From Bacteroidales bacterium (GTDB taxonomy: Bacteria; Bacteroidota; Bacteroidia; Bacteroidales; JAAYUG01): a DNA stretch of 41,818 nt. Shown here one piece after another: positions 29,882-37,059 of the stretch. Each line of letters begins with the position of its first letter. Within the stretch, counting starts at the first letter, position 1. A program made the translations under genes and the position numbers. A model generated the notes under the pieces. The model searched no databases and had not been told where the DNA came from. It worked only from the letters and a program-made list of their open reading frames with translations. The DNA lies in contig JAAYUG010000029.1 of the NCBI GenBank assembly GCA_012517825.1, positions 1 through 41,818 on the forward strand. Direction: 5' to 3'.

Positions 29882-30559
29882 TCATCCTTTGGAACTTATC
29901 TCCTTCAGAATCTCCTTGTTTTTTAACTGTACTTTTTTCCCTTCCAGTTGTATTATGCCATCATTCTCAAACTCAGCTATTACCCTGCTTACACTCTCAC
30001 GGGTAGCATCGACAAGATTCCCGAGTTCTTCCTGTGTAAGAGGAATGCTGAACGAATCTGCGTTAAAAATCCGTTCTGAAAATTCAAGCAGAACATCGGC
30101 AATTTTACCTCGTATCTGTTTCTGCGTACGATTGGCACACCGGTAAAACACCTCCAGCTCGTTACGGCATAGTTCAATCATAATTTCGTATGCAAAATCT
30201 GAATTACTTTTCAGAAGTTGTTTAAAAGTGCCCATATCAATAAAACATACTTCCGAACGTTCAATGGCTGTTACAGAATACTGGTTTATTTTATCGCCGA
30301 AAGTCGTCGGTAAGCCAAGGTAACCGGGAGCCTTAACGATACGGACAATCTGATCGTGATGCGGCCCGTTAATATGCACTTTGACAAGCCCGCTGCGCAA
30401 ATAGGCAACATTTGTCGAAAACACTCCCTGCCTGATAATCGAGTCCCCCCTGTTAAATGATGCCGTAATGCAATTGAAGGAAAGCTGTTCAATCTCCGAA
30501 TCCCGAAGCCGGGCAGCAGCACGGGATTTGATCGAACAATTTTTGCAGGAAAGTTCCAT
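29882..30559 (-). CDS. Crp/Fnr-family transcriptional regulator
   Basis: The 225-residue regulator has a cyclic-nucleotide-binding-like sensor domain (about 15-125), a dimerisation helix, and a C-terminal winged helix. The HTH reads LTQEELGNLVDATRESVSR. Its recognition helix has Arg187, Glu188 and Arg192 in the positions that CRP uses to read TGTGA, which matches the site at 30676-30691. The N-terminus carries a Cys5-x2-Cys8 pair (ELSCKNCSIKS) and other cysteines (30, 105, 131, 141), so a redox or metal-sensing role is possible. The pattern is not that of E. coli FNR. It is divergent from the DsrE/TusA/Qmo-like operon and is its likely regulator. The effector is unknown. Confidence 0.93.
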   Translation of the reverse strand: MELSCKNCSIKSRAAARLRDSEIEQLSFNCITASFNRGDSIIRQGVFSTNVAYLRSGLVKVHINGPHHDQIVRIVKAPGYLGLPTTFGDKINQYSVTAIERSEVCFIDMGTFKQLLKSNSDFAYEIMIELCRNELEVFYRCANRTQKQIRGKIADVLLEFSERIFNADSFSIPLTQEELGNLVDATRESVSRVIAEFENDGIIQLEGKKVQLKNKEILKEISSKG

Positions 30560-30660
30560 GGAAAAGTGAGTTTTTTGTACCAGAGTATTGAATGTATATA
30601 ACTGATTATCAGATACTTAATACATCATTAACGCATTTAATTAATAAACTTTTCAGAGCC

Positions 30661-30691
30661 CAAAAGTAACCTTTTTGTGATATACATCACA
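30661..30691 (-). promoter_or_regulatory. Predicted promoter of the Crp/Fnr gene
   Basis: Read on the minus strand, TACTTTTG (30668-30661) fits TAnnTTTG. TGTG (30691-30688) is a three-of-four match to -33 TTTG at 19-bp spacing. The -33 element lies inside the regulator's own predicted binding site. The start would be near 30654. Confidence 0.5.
30676..30691. promoter_or_regulatory. Crp/Fnr-type operator TGTGA-N6-TCACA
   Basis: TGTGATATACATCACA is an exact match to the half-sites and spacing bound by CRP-type proteins; the arms are perfect over 6 bp. It is centred about 120 bp from both flanking start codons. The recognition helix of the divergent regulator (R-E-x3-R) is compatible with TGTGA. 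It overlaps the probable crp -33 element and lies upstream of the probable dsrE promoter, so repression of crp and activation of the operon are both plausible. Confidence 0.75.
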
Positions 30692-30759
30692 TTTCTTTTT
30701 AAACTACTTTACAACAGAAACTGTAAAACTCAGGCCGGATTTGCCTTCTTTTGTTAGCC

Positions 30760-30779
30760 AAATAACAATACTGTTATTT
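30760..30779. promoter_or_regulatory. Second palindrome in the operon leader
   Basis: Two perfect 8-bp arms AAATAACA and TGTTATTT enclose the spacer ATAC. The same four bases form the centre of the TGTGA site. It lies 23 bp before the dsrE start codon, at or just after the likely transcription start (a TTCTTTTG -7-like motif is at 30746-30753). It could be an operator for a second regulator or a 5' UTR hairpin. No T-run follows, so it is not a terminator. Confidence 0.6.
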
Positions 30780-30802
30780 TAATCACAAAAAAACCTAATA
30801 CT

Positions 30803-31228
30803 ATGAAAAACAAAAAGTTATGCATTGGACTTTACACAGGCAGCGTTGATAAACTGACCGCTGCGGGAATTATACTTAGTGGCGCAGTTGCCAACGATAT
30901 GGAAGTTGACATCTATGTCCTTCTTCAGGCAGCCAGGGCTTTCAGAAAAGACATCGGCGACAATGCCGACAAACTGAACATGGCTGAAAATGCTGAACTT
31001 AAGGAAGAATTTCTGGCTTCATTAAAGAAGCTCAACGTAAAGACCTGGGTTGAATTTTTTAAAGAAGCTAAAGCCCTTGCCAACGTTAAAATTCACATTT
31101 GCGGGACGGCAGGGAAAATATGGGGCGCTGAAAAACTGGACGATTTTATTGAACTGGCCGATGATATTGTTGGTATTGGGGCATACATACAGGCGGCTGA
31201 AGAAGCAGATGTAAACTTATTTATTTAA
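30803..31228 (+). CDS. DsrE-family sulfur-transfer protein
   Basis: The first gene of the operon encodes a 141-residue soluble DsrE-fold protein. The family signature is visible in the opening strand-turn (LCIGLYTGSVDKLTAAGII), the second strand DVEIYVLL-type (EVDIYVLLQAARAF) and the ending VGIGAYIQAAEEADVNLFI. A candidate persulfide-carrying cysteine is Cys100 in VKIHICGTAGKIWG; Cys7 is the only other one. DsrE proteins pass sulfane sulfur between carriers such as TusA and rhodanese. The gap to the next gene is 13 bp. An insertion of about 25 residues (about 47-75) follows the second strand. Confidence 0.87.
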   Translation: MKNKKLCIGLYTGSVDKLTAAGIILSGAVANDMEVDIYVLLQAARAFRKDIGDNADKLNMAENAELKEEFLASLKKLNVKTWVEFFKEAKALANVKIHICGTAGKIWGAEKLDDFIELADDIVGIGAYIQAAEEADVNLFI

Positions 31229-31241
31229 CTCCATTAACTTC

Positions 31242-31796
31242 ATGGAAACAGGTATTACGAACATTCAGGCCCAGATTGAGGAGTTGAAAGCAAGAATTGC
31301 CTTTCTCGAAAATTCAAGGAAAGATTGCCTTTCTATCGCTGTTATTTCCGGAGACCTTGACCGCATTCTGGCCACAATGATCATCGCCCTCGCAGCTGCT
31401 GCGATGGACACAAAGGTGAAGCTGTTCTTTTCCTTCTGGTCGCTGGCGGCATTGCGCGATCCACAAAAAAAAGCAAAAAATAAAGATTTTATTTCCAAAA
31501 TGTTTGGTGTAATGCTTCCAAAGGGCAAAAATAAGCTTCCTCTTTCGCGAATGAATATGGCAGGCATGGGGCCTGCAATGATCAAATACCTGATGAAGAA
31601 ACAGAATGTTCTGTCGCTGGATGAAATGTTTCGGCAGGCTGAAGAGCTTGGGATTGAAATTACCGTGTGCGAAATGTCAATGAACCTGATGGGTTTTAAA
31701 AAAGAAGAACTTATTGATTACAAACATCTCCGCTTTGCCGGAGCGGCAACATTTGTCAGCGAAGCAAACGAAAGCACCATGCAATTATTTATTTGA
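31242..31796 (+). CDS. DsrE/DsrF/DrsH-like (DsrE2-type) protein
   Basis: The 184-residue protein starts with a short coiled coil (about 5-26, QAQIEELKARIAFLEN). The DsrE2-type body follows: SIAVISGDLDRILATMIIAL, the aromatic strand VKLFFSFWSLAAL, the basic loop MLPKGKNKLPLSRMNMAGMG, and GIEITVCEMSMNLMGFKKEEL. Cys143 in TVCEMS matches the conserved active-site cysteine of the group. Hydrophobic stretches suggest possible membrane contact, as described for some DsrE2 proteins. With DsrE and TusA-like neighbours, it probably receives and passes sulfane sulfur. Translation start uses the ATG at 31242; the frame ends 26 bp before the TusA-type gene. Confidence 0.88.
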   Translation: METGITNIQAQIEELKARIAFLENSRKDCLSIAVISGDLDRILATMIIALAAAAMDTKVKLFFSFWSLAALRDPQKKAKNKDFISKMFGVMLPKGKNKLPLSRMNMAGMGPAMIKYLMKKQNVLSLDEMFRQAEELGIEITVCEMSMNLMGFKKEELIDYKHLRFAGAATFVSEANESTMQLFI

Positions 31797-31822: not shown

Positions 31823-32074
31823 ATGACAACTGATGAATTAAAAAACCTCCAACCGGCAAGAACCGTTGATGCCCGTGGCACCGCATGTCCCGGCCCACTC
31901 CTTGAAGCAAAAAAAGCTATTGGCACCATTAAACCGGGCGACATCATGGAAGTCCTCTCGGCCGATGAAGGAACTAAAGTAGACATACCAAAATGGTGCA
32001 CTAAACAGGGACACGAATACCTTGGCACCATTGATGAGAGCGGGTATTACCGTATTTTTCTGAGAAAAAAATAA
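31823..32074 (+). CDS. TusA-family sulfur carrier
   Basis: The 83-residue protein has the TusA/SirA fold with the invariant motif Cys22-Pro-x-Pro in ARGTACPGPLLEAKKAI. The end shows the family's GTKVDIPKWCTKQGHEYLG. Cys22 would carry a persulfide. TusA proteins work in tRNA thiolation, molybdenum cofactor synthesis or dissimilatory sulfur metabolism. The operon with DsrE-type and Hdr/Qmo-type genes points to the last. It lies between the DsrE2-type gene and the MvhD-like gene with a 5-bp gap downstream. Confidence 0.94.
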   Translation: MTTDELKNLQPARTVDARGTACPGPLLEAKKAIGTIKPGDIMEVLSADEGTKVDIPKWCTKQGHEYLGTIDESGYYRIFLRKK

Positions 32075-32079
32075 AGAAT

Positions 32080-32481
32080 ATGCCAGTAGCCAGTGGAAAA
32101 GCCAAAATACTGGTTTTTTCAACAGAAAAAATATCCGATCCGGCCATCGATATGGCCGGATTGCTTAAGTTGCACTATCCGTCAACGGTTTATACCATCT
32201 CGGTACCGTGTTCCAGCAGCATTAAACCCCGCTGGATTCTGCACGCTTATGCAAAAGGATTTGACGGTGTATTTATTGCCGCCGACGGAAGTGACTGTCC
32301 CTATGATGAATCCTGTACTGAAAAGACTGGGAACATAGTTGCTGCAACGCAGGAATTGATGAAAGAGCAGCAGATTGATCCGGCGCGATTGCGGATGGCA
32401 GCTATCTGCTCCGTTTGCAGTGAAGCTTTTGTCAGACAAATAAAATCATTTAGCGAATATCTGAGTAAAACTAGACAATAA
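32080..32481 (+). CDS. MvhD-like (hydrogenase iron-sulfur subunit family) protein, divergent
   Basis: The 133 residues resemble the delta subunit of F420-non-reducing hydrogenase, also found at the C-terminus of QmoB. The landmark CSGRVDP appears as CSSSIKP (Cys44). FILxAF is WILHAYAKGFDGVFIAADG, and GDCHY is SDCPY (Cys73). The N-terminal CNWC pair of MvhD is missing, while Cys79 and a CxxC (Cys110/Cys113) are present. The cluster type may therefore differ. In known complexes this module hands electrons to an HdrA-type flavoprotein; the next two genes encode such proteins. The stop is 2 bp from the next ATG. Family call is fairly sure, redox function inferred. Confidence 0.8.
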   Translation: MPVASGKAKILVFSTEKISDPAIDMAGLLKLHYPSTVYTISVPCSSSIKPRWILHAYAKGFDGVFIAADGSDCPYDESCTEKTGNIVAATQELMKEQQIDPARLRMAAICSVCSEAFVRQIKSFSEYLSKTRQ

Positions 32482-32483
32482 TT

Positions 32484-33785
32484 ATGGAGAACAACCGGAG
32501 AGAGGCATCCTATGATGCACTGGTTGTCGGCGGGGGAATTGCAGGAATCGAAACAGCCCTGAATATTGCCAACAACGGATTTAAAGTATTACTGGTCGAA
32601 AAGGATCTTTCCATCGGCGGAAAAATGATCCTGCTCAGTAAAGTATTCCCCACACTCGACTGTGCGGCCTGCATTACCACGCCCAAAGTCTCGGAAGTTT
32701 CGAGGCATCCCGGAATAACCATTTTCACTTCGGCTGAAGTTCAATCGGTGGAAAAATCAGGAGACAAGGTTTTTACAGCCAGCATACGGAAAAAACCGCG
32801 GTATGTCATTGCCGAAGACTGTACGGGTTGCCAGCTGTGCGAACAGGCCTGCCCCGTTATTACTACCGATGAATATCAGATGAACCTGGTTGGCCGAAAA
32901 GCCGCATTCATTCCTTTCAGCATTGCCAGCCCGCGGGTTGCAGCCATCGATATGGAAAACTGTACCCTGTGCGGAGCATGCGAGAAAGTCTGCCCAACAA
33001 AATGCATCGATTTTACACAAACCGAAGAGTACCTGAACGTGGAGGTAAAAACGGTAATTATTGCCACCGGTTTTACTCTCTTCGATCCTCTTCGCATACC
33101 CCGTTATGGCTTTGGCCTTTATAAAAATGTCATCACCTCCATGCAGATGGAACGGCAACTTGCTCCCACAAGACCATTTCACACTATTCTCAGGCCGGGA
33201 GACGGCAAAGTACCCGATAAAGTGGCGTACGTTCTGTGCACGGGGAGCCGCGATGCGACCATCGGCAATCCGGTCTGTTCTCAGATCTGCTGCATGTATT
33301 CTGTTAAACAGGCTCAGCTCCTGATGGGTGCTTTACCTATGGCCGATGTCACCATTTATTACATCGACATCAGAGCCTTCGGTAAAGGATTCAACGAATT
33401 CTATCAACAGGCACAGGGAATGGGCGTAAATTTTGTCAAAGGAAAGGTGGCCAAAATCGTTGAAAAAGACAATGGAAATCTTTTACTGCGGTACGAAGAC
33501 ATTCTCAGCGGAACTGTGCGTGAAGCAGAGCATGATCTGGTTGTTCTCTCTGTCGGAGTTTTACCGAACCAGGAACCTCTGAAATATTTTCCCGATGCAA
33601 GCCTTCAGTCGGACAACTTTCATTTTGTCAGGCAGATGGATCCCCTGGCATCGCCCTCTGTCACCTCCATCCCCGGGGTATTTGTAGCAGGAACTGCATC
33701 GGGGCCAATGGACATACCTGATTCCATCCTCTCTGCAGGCTCAGCTTCTGCTGAAGCAATCAGTTACATAAGCGAGAAAAAATGA
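32484..33785 (+). CDS. HdrA-like flavin and iron-sulfur protein (QmoA-like)
   Basis: The 433-residue protein has an N-terminal FAD Rossmann motif (GGGIAG, 17-22), followed by the HdrA hallmark FPTLDCAACITTPKVSEV (Cys60/Cys63). Two ferredoxin clusters follow, at Cys113/116/119/123 and Cys160/163/166/170. A second half holds AYVLCTGSRDATIGNPVCSQICCMYS, and the end has PGVFVAGTASGPMDIPDSI. Length (433) equals QmoA rather than full HdrA, which carries an N-terminal extension. It would accept electrons through FAD and pass them along the iron-sulfur chain. The stop overlaps the next start by 4 bp. Assignment to HdrA/QmoA is firm; its electron partners are inference. Confidence 0.92.
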   Translation: MENNRREASYDALVVGGGIAGIETALNIANNGFKVLLVEKDLSIGGKMILLSKVFPTLDCAACITTPKVSEVSRHPGITIFTSAEVQSVEKSGDKVFTASIRKKPRYVIAEDCTGCQLCEQACPVITTDEYQMNLVGRKAAFIPFSIASPRVAAIDMENCTLCGACEKVCPTKCIDFTQTEEYLNVEVKTVIIATGFTLFDPLRIPRYGFGLYKNVITSMQMERQLAPTRPFHTILRPGDGKVPDKVAYVLCTGSRDATIGNPVCSQICCMYSVKQAQLLMGALPMADVTIYYIDIRAFGKGFNEFYQQAQGMGVNFVKGKVAKIVEKDNGNLLLRYEDILSGTVREAEHDLVVLSVGVLPNQEPLKYFPDASLQSDNFHFVRQMDPLASPSVTSIPGVFVAGTASGPMDIPDSILSAGSASAEAISYISEKK

Positions 33786-35713
33786 AAAACAAAATAGGTG
33801 TTTATATCTGCCATTGCGGAGGCAATATATCCGATTATGTGGACGTGGAAAAAGTCCGACAGGCTGTTGAACACGATGAAGGCGTAGCTCTGGCGAAAAC
33901 CACCATGTTTGCCTGTTCTGATGCCAATCAGAAACAAATGGAACAGGATATTCATGAACAAGGACTGGATGGAGTTATTGTAGCCTCCTGCTCTCCGAAA
34001 CTTCATCTGGTTACATTCCGCTCCGTTACCCAACGGGCAGGCCTGAACAAATTTGAATATGTTCATGCCAATATACGGGAACAGGATTCATGGGCACATT
34101 CTGATAATAAGCAGGGAGCTACAGAAAAAGCTATTCATCTTGTAAAGGCGGCAATAGCCAAAGTACGCAATGCCAAAGCCCTTGAACCTATCAAGGTTGA
34201 CTCCAGCAAAAGCGTTGCCGTCATTGGAGCAGGGGTGGCCGGCATGAAAGCTGCCCTTTCTCTGGCCAGGATGGGAACTAAGGTTTTCCTCATTGAACAG
34301 GATCATTTTGTTGGAGGGAGAACGGCTCAATGGGACGAGCTTTTCACTTCCGGCGAAAAAGGCCCCGAATTGGTTAAAGCACTGTATGATCAGATAAGAG
34401 AGCATCCCAGTATTACATTATATACAGGGGCCAGGCTGTGGGAATCATCCGGCAGCATCGGAAACTTCACATTAACCATTGAACTTGCTCCGGCATTCAT
34501 TGATGAAAATGCTGATAACAATGAGATTAAAAAAGCAATAGAAGTATGCCCTGTTTCGGTTCCCGATCCCTTCAATTTCGGCCTGACGAGCAGAAAAGCC
34601 ATCTATTTCAACCACCCGGGGCAATTTCCTGAAAAAGTTGCCATCGATAAACAGGCGTGCAATTGCTGCGGCAAATGCGCCGAAGTTTGTTCAGCAATTC
34701 ATCTGAAGAAGGAACCTCAGATGATAAAACTCCAGGCAGGGGCTGTCGTCTTCGCCAATGGCTTTGATCCCTATACCCCTAAAGCCGGTGAATATGGAAT
34801 CGGAATTGCAGGCAATGTCATTACCCTGCCAGCGTTTAAAAGACTTGTCAGCCTGTCGGAAAAGGAACTTATTTATAACGGAAAGCCCGTACAGAAAATA
34901 GCCTATATTTATTGTGTCGGAAGCCGCCAGCCCGAAGGAGAAAATAAATACTGCTCGCGGTATTGCTGCACGGCCGCTATTCATGCCGCCAGCACGGCCC
35001 GTGAGAAGTTCCCCGGAATTCTGAATTTTCACTTTACACGGGGTGTCAGAACATACGGCAAACAGGAAATTATATACGCAGAAGCTCTCCGCAATGGCGA
35101 TGTTTTTCTTCAGTCAGCTGATGATGAACTTCCGCAGGTGGATACAAGCAACGGAAAAACCATTGTCAGAATAAATGATATCCTCACCGAACAAAAAACC
35201 ATAGAACTTGAACCCGATCTGATAGTGCTTGTCACGTCAATGGTAATGCGGGATCATTTGCACACCGAGACCCTCTTCAAAATACCCAGGGGCAGAGACA
35301 ACTTTCTGAAGGAAATTCATCCCAAGCTTCGTCCTGTTGAAACAGTAATTGACGGAATTACCATTGCCGGCACCTGCCAGGGACCTATGAATATTACCGA
35401 GTCAGTCAATTCTGCTCTTTCAGCGGCAACCAAAGCTTTTTCCTATGTCAGGAAGGGAGAAATTGAAATTGAACCCGTTATTGCCGAAATCAACAAGGAC
35501 CAATGCACCTGGTGCAATAAATGTGCTGAGGCCTGTCCGTTTGATGCCATCAGAAAGGTGGACGCTGAGGGCAAATCAATTGCAGTTATCAATAATTCGG
35601 TTTGCAAAGGTTGCGGAATGTGCCTCCCGGTATGCCCCACTGATGCTATCGAACTCGTCACGTACTCCAACAAGGAAATTGAAGATATGATCGACATGCT
35701 TGCTGCAGATTAA
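33782..35713 (+). CDS. HdrA-like flavin and iron-sulfur protein (QmoB-like without MvhD domain)
   Basis: The 643 residues follow the full HdrA plan. The N-terminal cluster-binding part has GVYICHCGGN (Cys10/Cys12), FACSD (Cys45) and SCSPKLH (Cys70). An FAD motif GAGVAG lies at 149-154. A middle ferredoxin-like insert with CNCCGKCAEVC lies around residues 290-305. YIYCVGSRQP..CSRYCCTAAIHAA follows, and two classical 4Fe-4S clusters close the protein (Cys575/578/581/585 and Cys608/611/614/618). QmoB of sulfate reducers looks similar but ends in an MvhD domain, here supplied by a separate gene two cistrons upstream. The middle insert has too few cysteines for a complete second cluster. It probably sits at the centre of the complex. 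Confidence 0.92.
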   Translation: MKNKIGVYICHCGGNISDYVDVEKVRQAVEHDEGVALAKTTMFACSDANQKQMEQDIHEQGLDGVIVASCSPKLHLVTFRSVTQRAGLNKFEYVHANIREQDSWAHSDNKQGATEKAIHLVKAAIAKVRNAKALEPIKVDSSKSVAVIGAGVAGMKAALSLARMGTKVFLIEQDHFVGGRTAQWDELFTSGEKGPELVKALYDQIREHPSITLYTGARLWESSGSIGNFTLTIELAPAFIDENADNNEIKKAIEVCPVSVPDPFNFGLTSRKAIYFNHPGQFPEKVAIDKQACNCCGKCAEVCSAIHLKKEPQMIKLQAGAVVFANGFDPYTPKAGEYGIGIAGNVITLPAFKRLVSLSEKELIYNGKPVQKIAYIYCVGSRQPEGENKYCSRYCCTAAIHAASTAREKFPGILNFHFTRGVRTYGKQEIIYAEALRNGDVFLQSADDELPQVDTSNGKTIVRINDILTEQKTIELEPDLIVLVTSMVMRDHLHTETLFKIPRGRDNFLKEIHPKLRPVETVIDGITIAGTCQGPMNITESVNSALSAATKAFSYVRKGEIEIEPVIAEINKDQCTWCNKCAEACPFDAIRKVDAEGKSIAVINNSVCKGCGMCLPVCPTDAIELVTYSNKEIEDMIDMLAAD

Positions 35714-35728
35714 CTAACAAAAAAAGCT

Positions 35729-36007
35729 ATGGAGCCAATTAAAGGACAGACATATAAATATTTACGCGAAAAACATCCGGTATCCGACAAAGCAAAGGAG
35801 CAACTCAAACAATTTACCCGCATCAAAAAATCCATCCTTGAAAATCTCAGAGAGAAGGAAATGACCATTGCCGAGCTTTCGGAAAAACTTTCCATGCCCC
35901 GTGAAGAAGTTGTTTACTATCTGATGACCCTTATGAAATACGGACTTATTCAGTTGGGCAGTATTGATGATATGGATGAGTATTATACTTATAAGATTAA
36001 GGAATAA
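35729..36007 (+). CDS. Small winged-helix (HTH) protein inside the operon
   Basis: The 92-residue product contains a MarR/ArsR-like winged helix: IKKSILENLREKEMTIAELSEKL, then the second and recognition helices SMPREEVVYYLMTLMKYGLI, then a wing with an acidic turn (SIDDMDEYYTYKI). A 25-residue basic N-terminus precedes it. There is no cysteine. It lies 15 bp after the QmoB-like gene and its stop overlaps the next start by one base (TAATG). Such small HTH proteins occur beside Hdr-type genes in several anaerobes; whether it binds DNA or acts as a structural subunit is unknown. Confidence 0.82.
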   Translation: MEPIKGQTYKYLREKHPVSDKAKEQLKQFTRIKKSILENLREKEMTIAELSEKLSMPREEVVYYLMTLMKYGLIQLGSIDDMDEYYTYKIKE

Positions 36008-37059
36008 TGGCAACAATTAATCCCGGTTTAACAAAGGAATTAAAAAAATACGGAACATTTGACTTCTCCGCCTGTTACAATTGCGGCACCTGCACTGCCA
36101 TCTGTTCTCTGACCAATGAGCAGGAATCCTTTCCCCGTAATATGGTCCGTTACAGCGTACTGGGTGCGGAACAGGAAATTACCTCATCATTAAAACCCTG
36201 GCTCTGTTATTATTGCGGAGAATGTTCAACACACTGCCCCCAGAAAGCTTACCCGGGAGAACTCATGATGACTCTCCGCAGATGGTTAACTGCTCAATAT
36301 GACTGGACTGGACTATCAGGATTACTATATAAATCCGTATTCCTGAATGTATTCCTCTTCGTTTTTGTTGGAGCGGCCGTAATTCTGTTTGGGATTCTGA
36401 ACCATTTCAACACCGAAAAAATCATGCATGCGGGCCATTTATTTGAAATGATTGCTATTGCAGGAGTATTTACTCTGATTTTGCTGCCCAACATTATCCG
36501 CATGTGGTACTTCACCATTCTGAAGCCAGGTATCAAAGTCCCGGTAAAAATCTATATCCAATCGTTACAGGATCTCGTGGTGCACATGTTTACCCAGAAG
36601 CGTGCCCTTTCCTGTGAAAACAATACATTCCGGTGGCTGGAACATTTTCTTCTGGTTATCGGTTACCTGACCCTTCTTTTTACCACAGTCTTTCTTAACT
36701 GGTTCTCAACCTCCAGCACAGGTATTGTTTTAATGGGCTATCTGGTGAGTGCCGCTTTATTTGTTATTACGTTTGATTTCGTGCTGGCACGTATAAAAAA
36801 ATCAAAAGAAGTAAGCCGGTTTTCAAAACCTTCTGACTGGTTTTTTGTAATCTGGCTCTTTTTGATGGGGCTGAGCGCTTTCGTGGTACGTTTGTTCATC
36901 GACCTGAATCTTCTGGAGAAGAATTTCTGGATCTATATTTGCCACCTGATCATTCTGGCTCAGTGGGCTTTGATTATAGTTCCTTTTGGCAAATGGACCC
37001 ATTTTTTGTATCGTTCCTTCGCCATGTACTTCGAAAAAATTGTTCTGAGCCAGAAATAA
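36007..37059 (+). CDS. HdrC-like iron-sulfur protein fused to membrane domain (QmoC-like)
   Basis: The 350-residue subunit begins with two 4Fe-4S motifs at Cys23/26/29/33 (CYNCGTCTAIC) and Cys67/70/73/77 (CYYCGECSTHCP), as in HdrC. A membrane domain of about six helices follows (about 108-345), the arrangement of QmoC. Possible haem b or quinone-site histidines lie at membrane edges: HAGHLFEM, WLEHFLLVIGY and CHLIILAQW. It would connect the cytosolic flavoproteins to menaquinone. No HdrB with CCG motifs is encoded, again as in Qmo. It is the last gene of the operon; no clear terminator is seen after it. Confidence 0.92.
   Translation: MATINPGLTKELKKYGTFDFSACYNCGTCTAICSLTNEQESFPRNMVRYSVLGAEQEITSSLKPWLCYYCGECSTHCPQKAYPGELMMTLRRWLTAQYDWTGLSGLLYKSVFLNVFLFVFVGAAVILFGILNHFNTEKIMHAGHLFEMIAIAGVFTLILLPNIIRMWYFTILKPGIKVPVKIYIQSLQDLVVHMFTQKRALSCENNTFRWLEHFLLVIGYLTLLFTTVFLNWFSTSSTGIVLMGYLVSAALFVITFDFVLARIKKSKEVSRFSKPSDWFFVIWLFLMGLSAFVVRLFIDLNLLEKNFWIYICHLIILAQWALIIVPFGKWTHFLYRSFAMYFEKIVLSQK

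Follow-up and report, generated by a model that had tools for sequence, protein, structure and literature searches.

HcpR of Desulfovibrio is a Crp/Fnr-family regulator with the motif wTGTGAnnnnnnTCACAw, and among its regulon members are apsAB, sat and a putative thiosulfate reductase, perhaps also qmoABC, which lies downstream of apsBA (PMC545781, PMC1274295). According to a published rule, residues R180 and E181 of the recognition helix are linked to G3/A6 and to TGTGA (PMC1274295). Among sulfur gene clusters, the YTD cluster of sulfur disproportionators has dsrE and tusA together (PMC12998232). We analysed a stretch of 41,818 nucleotides of a Bacteroidales bacterium (contig JAAYUG010000029.1; the window) in which a Crp/Fnr-family gene diverges from an operon headed by dsrE-type genes. 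In searches of the open-access literature, neither this operon nor this regulator was found described for Bacteroidales. We assign a probability of roughly 0.77 to the reading as a whole, in which an FNR-type redox sensor of a sulfur operon would repress its own gene and activate the operon from the same operator, O1. While a known motif and a known protein family are ordinary, the promoter geometry, the Cys/His pattern of the regulator and its dedicated sulfur targets set this system apart as a variant.

The regulator gene (29882–30559, minus strand) and the plus-strand operon starting at 30803 are separated by 243 bp. The earlier note had claimed an exact TGTGA-N6-TCACA palindrome at 30676–30691 within this gap; TGTGATATACATCACA was found there and is the only match without mismatch in the window. 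A genome-wide scan, which the same note had put forward for defining the regulon, yielded three perfect matches in 3.3 Mb. Two of these are located within ORFs, leaving O1 as the sole intergenic perfect site of the genome. At a rate of 3 per 3.3 Mb the genome-wide number is near expectation, while the chance of a perfect site in one 243-bp gap is about 2 in 10,000, so that its occurrence in O1's own gap was unlikely. Besides the window's own, all 11 one-mismatch sites inspected were inside ORFs. A genome-wide regulon was not supported, as perfect sites numbered 0–7 per genome in 11 genomes, in several of them near a reversed-pattern control. The scan points to a narrow regulon, which the earlier note had not recognized; judged by perfect intergenic sites, the dsrE operon is the only predicted target in its own genome.

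Orthologs of the regulator were obtained from order-mates and, in the GTDB collection, at 80 further loci, all Bacteroidales or Bacteroidota as judged by title or sampled order, giving 88 usable upstream regions. Absence of the site from orthologous loci had been named beforehand as evidence against the operator, and was looked for. A site matching in at least 9 of 10 positions was present within 200 bp upstream of the regulator in 81 of the 88 loci, compared to 0.8 expected from Markov shuffles, and a perfect site in 67 compared to 0.02; as the loci come mostly from metagenome assemblies and are related, these counts do not represent independent events. At the exceptions L054, L056 and L097 the regulator does not adjoin the operon, and the L054 assembly contains a second copy of the regulator (L077) beside the operon, with the site. 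The locus also occurs in a closed genome, that of Bacteroidales bacterium CF, and in a Petrimonas genome, which makes these candidate strains if obtainable.

Promoter geometry was determined on 51 non-redundant loci aligned on O1, with offsets counted from its first base. On the regulator side, a perfect TAnnTTTG -7 box starts 21–25 bp from O1 in 37 of the 51 loci, indicating that O1 covers the -33 position of this promoter; the usual forms are TGTG-N17 to N20 or TTTG-N19 pairs. In the window, the -7 box TACTTTTG (30668–30661, minus strand) follows a -33-like TGTG inside O1 (30691–30688) after a 19-bp spacer, which matches the minus-strand promoter, with its -33 element within the palindrome, that had been suggested earlier. 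The centre of O1 lies at about -26 to -29 relative to the predicted regulator start, near 30656 on the minus strand. The layout is that of an autoregulated divergent local regulator, with the operator over its own -33/-7 promoter in 37 of 51 loci. A dimer of the regulator on O1 would cover the -33 element of its own sigma-ABfr promoter and, to judge the sign by this geometry, repress it. Taken together with the conservation across loci, there is little doubt that O1 is a genuine regulatory site in Bacteroidales, through which the regulator would limit its own expression.

Autoregulation is frequent in the Crp/Fnr family. This, together with the overlap of O1 and the regulator's promoter, would also fit a role of O1 at that promoter only, any effect on the operon being incidental to the divergent layout. 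We consider this the least probable of the alternatives, as it does not account for loci L073, L096 and L101, in which other genes intervene between regulator and operon and the operon nevertheless has its own perfect site, at 70, 70 and 71 bp, respectively. By comparison of these loci, the operon-side distance is independent of sharing one gap with the regulator. At L073 and L096 a site is also kept 21 bp from the -7 box of the regulator; at L101 no site adjoins the regulator.

On the operon side, a -7 box (TAnnTTTG with at most one mismatch) starts exactly 70 bp from O1 in 31 of the 51 loci and at 69–71 bp in 40, compared to 0.37 boxes expected at any one offset (nominal P of 3e-53 for offset 70, with loci treated as independent). 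A separate sample, drawn evenly across the order, contained loci of greater divergence (L161–L170 and L186–L188; regulator identity 41–54%), and these keep the 70-bp distance, several with perfect boxes. The box of the window itself, TTCTTTTG (30746–30753, plus strand), has one mismatch. In Flavobacterium, the -7 box has been mapped at -12 to -5 (PMC9723704), and the same placement predicts that the dsrE operon starts at 30758 on the plus strand. The centre of O1 would then lie at about -74, close to the 76 bp upstream of the likely dsrE start given in the earlier note. A degenerate second operator, O2 (TTTAAACTACTTTACA, 30698–30713, plus strand), is located 22 bp promoter-proximal of O1, a spacing of about two helical turns, with its centre predicted at about -52. 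In the 51 loci, O2 has a mean match of 6.1/10 compared to a background of 2.7 (z of 5.6), and the base at offset 35 in this region is A in all of them; the window's own O2 is weak (7/10). No conserved -33 TTTG was seen in the operon promoter across the 51 aligned loci. A fixed upstream operator distance, here 70 bp between O1 and the -7 box with O2 22 bp closer, is a class I-type feature. The same dimer on O1, probably together with a second one on O2, would activate the operon from positions centred at about -74 and -52, in a class I-like manner and at a promoter that has no conserved -33 element. The regulator thus probably switches the operon on via O1.

A third element, O3 (TGTTAGCCAAATAACA, 30752–30767), has the form TGTkA-N6-TAACA at offset 76 and, in the clade of the window, overlaps the operon -7 box and the predicted start, a position that would suit repression as well. 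Exact TAACA at offset 87–91, for which the background is 0.0006, was found in 10 of the 51 loci and in 7 of the 9 that carry the small dsrE gene. We regard O3 as clade-specific and tentative because part of it coincides with the -7 box itself. As the O1–O3 spacing is fixed at 76 bp in several loci, the protein might be a pure repressor that silences its own promoter from O1 and also the operon, either through a loop to O3 or because it hinders an activator. This appears unlikely, since most other lineages are without O3, yet the 70-bp spacing and O2 persist in them, and since the missing -33 element is what would be expected of an activator-dependent promoter. Activation from O1 and O2, with self-repression from O1, remains the favoured reading. 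An extra 9/10 match in the leader, O4 (TGTTATTTTAATCACA, 30772–30787), was rejected as a conserved operator because no element at a fixed equivalent position was seen in relatives. Within the predicted 5' leader (30746–30793), O3 and O4 are arranged as an inverted pair that could fold into a hairpin; conservation of this pair is not evident.

Across Bacteroidales, conservation thus extends to the identity of the operator, its overlap with the regulator promoter and its position upstream of the operon promoter, which supports the interpretation in the earlier note. That note was right on the site and likely on its double role, the sign of regulation being read from geometry, and it missed O2, O3, the near-fixed 70-bp spacing, and the FNR-like Cys pattern of the regulator.

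The regulator (225 aa) resembles both CRP and FNR. Its recognition helix, TRESVSR, contains R187-E188-x3-R192, which aligns with R180/E181/R185 of E. coli CRP; the Arg-Glu-x3-Arg pattern noted earlier for reading TGTGA is thereby confirmed. No substitution of R187 or E188 occurs among 91 orthologs, 90 of which also have R192, and these residues fit the published rule. Helix pattern, TGTGA-N6-TCACA operator (assigned by comparison) and upstream class I-like position are all shared with CRP, and the regulator would read TGTGA with a CRP-type helix. In contrast, the cAMP-contacting residues of CRP (E72, R82 and S83) align with L, Q and Y and are not conserved, and CRP is a global regulator whereas this one would act locally. 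From FNR of E. coli and A. fischeri it differs in recognition helix and assigned half-site, with RESVSR and TGTGA in place of VETISR and TTGAT.

The likeness to FNR concerns the fold, the CxxC motif and the equivalent of Cys122. Cys5, Cys8 and Cys105, which all 91 orthologs share, occupy the alignment positions of C20, C23 and C122 of FNR. Unlike FNR, with its four ligands C20, C23, C29 and C122, the regulator has no equivalent of C29 and carries Cys or His at position 30 (51 orthologs have Cys and 37 have His, together 88 of 91). The alternation hints at a ligand of a metal or cluster, and a packing role is possible, as CRP Cys18 aligns opposite. Of 17 paralogs at greater distance, all nine with CxxC have Cys105, as do two of the eight without; the Cys pattern is also found in other Bacteroidales paralogs. 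An AlphaFold model (pLDDT 91) had holo-FNR of A. fischeri as its best match, and the four best structure matches were all holo-FNR entries, with CRP-type structures close behind. Alignment and model together suggest that the regulator holds a cluster at the FNR-position Cys residues. Redox would probably be sensed by an iron-sulfur cluster or another thiol-ligated centre on Cys5, Cys8, Cys105 and perhaps Cys/His30. HcpR of P. gingivalis (9DAY) matched the regulator far more weakly in sequence than CRP or FNR did (E of 3.7e-4 compared to about 4e-11 for CRP), in a comparison covering the P. gingivalis HcpR only.

The genome of the window encodes at least six more distant Crp/Fnr paralogs, and the operon loci L178 and L182 adjoin other Crp/Fnr genes with TGTGA-like sites. 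A different paralog might therefore bind O1 while the adjacent protein acts elsewhere. This is highly improbable: the site tracks the ortholog of the adjacent regulator across the order, R187 and E188 do not vary, and a homologue without R187 (L017) is also without the palindrome. O1 is best regarded as the putative operator of the divergent regulator itself.

The operon, all on the plus strand, encodes a small DsrE-family protein (30803–31228; PF13686), a DsrE2-like protein (31242–31796; PF13686, 1.7e-47; NF047629 below its cut-off), a TusA-type sulfurtransferase (31823–32074; PF01206), an FlpD/MvhD-like electron-transfer subunit (32080–32481; PF02662), a short HdrA/QmoA-like flavoprotein (32484–33785), a long HdrA/QmoB-like flavoprotein (33782–35713), a small winged-helix protein of 92 aa between the HdrA-like and QmoC-like genes (35729–36007; PF01022 just above cut-off), and a QmoC/HdrC-like membrane Fe-S protein (36007–37059; NF038018, 1.6e-39, below its cut-off). 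Searches of the genome gave no match for dsrA and only a weak, below-cut-off match for aprA, which makes canonical sulfate reduction unlikely, and we rejected it as the function of the operon. In our reading of the gene content, a DsrE/TusA persulfide relay would exchange electrons with, and probably feed, a quinone-linked membrane complex of the Hdr/Qmo-like type, and this would be the one operon controlled. As in the YTD cluster, dsrE and tusA occur together, and yedE is present in some related loci; the window operon differs in lacking yedE and in adding FlpD, two HdrA-like proteins and a QmoC-like protein. HcpR of Desulfovibrio has hcp-frdX as its core target and many regulon members, whereas the regulator of the window has a single predicted operon and no hcp beside it. 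No hcp was found near the window locus in the operon and the flanking families examined, the linked genes being dsrE/tusA/hdr or other sulfur genes.

In several distant loci (L013/L146, L166, L168, L010/L151) the regulator neighbours octaheme tetrathionate-reductase-family cytochromes, YedE-type transporters and rhodaneses, and at L068 (64% identity) TusA, YedE and rhodanese genes adjoin it. The layout is found at 69–70 bp at L013, L068, L166 and L168. A few distant members (e.g. L015 and L160) have neighbours without a sulfur link. Across the regulator family the targets thus appear to be mostly sulfur-redox genes.

Comparison of genomes further supports the association of regulator and operon, which co-occur in 27 of 247 genomes compared to 7 expected (Fisher P of 2e-15). 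The layout of O1 plus 70 bp was absent from six operon loci whose genomes contain no close ortholog of the regulator (L174, L175, L177–L180). It was present at L176 though no close ortholog was found in that genome, which is only 79% complete. The layout was also absent at L181 and L185, operon copies on other contigs than the regulator in genomes that encode it elsewhere, indicating that the link between regulator and operon is not universal. The operon copies at L178 and L182 adjoin Crp/Fnr genes 35–39% identical to the regulator, with TGTGA-N6-TAACA sites near; perhaps the regulator has been replaced there.

As a tentative generalization, which we hold to be possible rather than likely, these proteins may form a Bacteroidales clade, hitherto without a name, of iron-sulfur sensors that combine Cys residues at three FNR positions with a fourth ligand that may be either Cys or His, and that read DNA in the CRP manner. 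Such a clade would be dedicated to sulfane-sulfur and tetrathionate respiration; its members would use tandem operators, placed at a nearly constant upstream distance, to activate sigma-ABfr promoters, and would repress themselves from the same site. With one conserved operator at two fixed distances, the locus offers a testable model of how the unusual Bacteroidota promoter could be activated. As a redox-sensor-like protein is tied to a sulfur electron-transfer operon, the conditions that switch the regulator would reveal the purpose of the operon.

Perfect TGTGAN6TCACA sites were also observed elsewhere. Two of them (L054:6670–6830 and L145:1371–1560) lie upstream of another Crp/Fnr paralog that adjoins an operon for a molybdoenzyme (PhsA-like in L054), which suggests that sister regulators in one genome share the motif. 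Others are internal to operons, where they lie between dsrE-type genes or in the gap from dsrE to tusA (L189:5425–5440 and L183:3378–3393).
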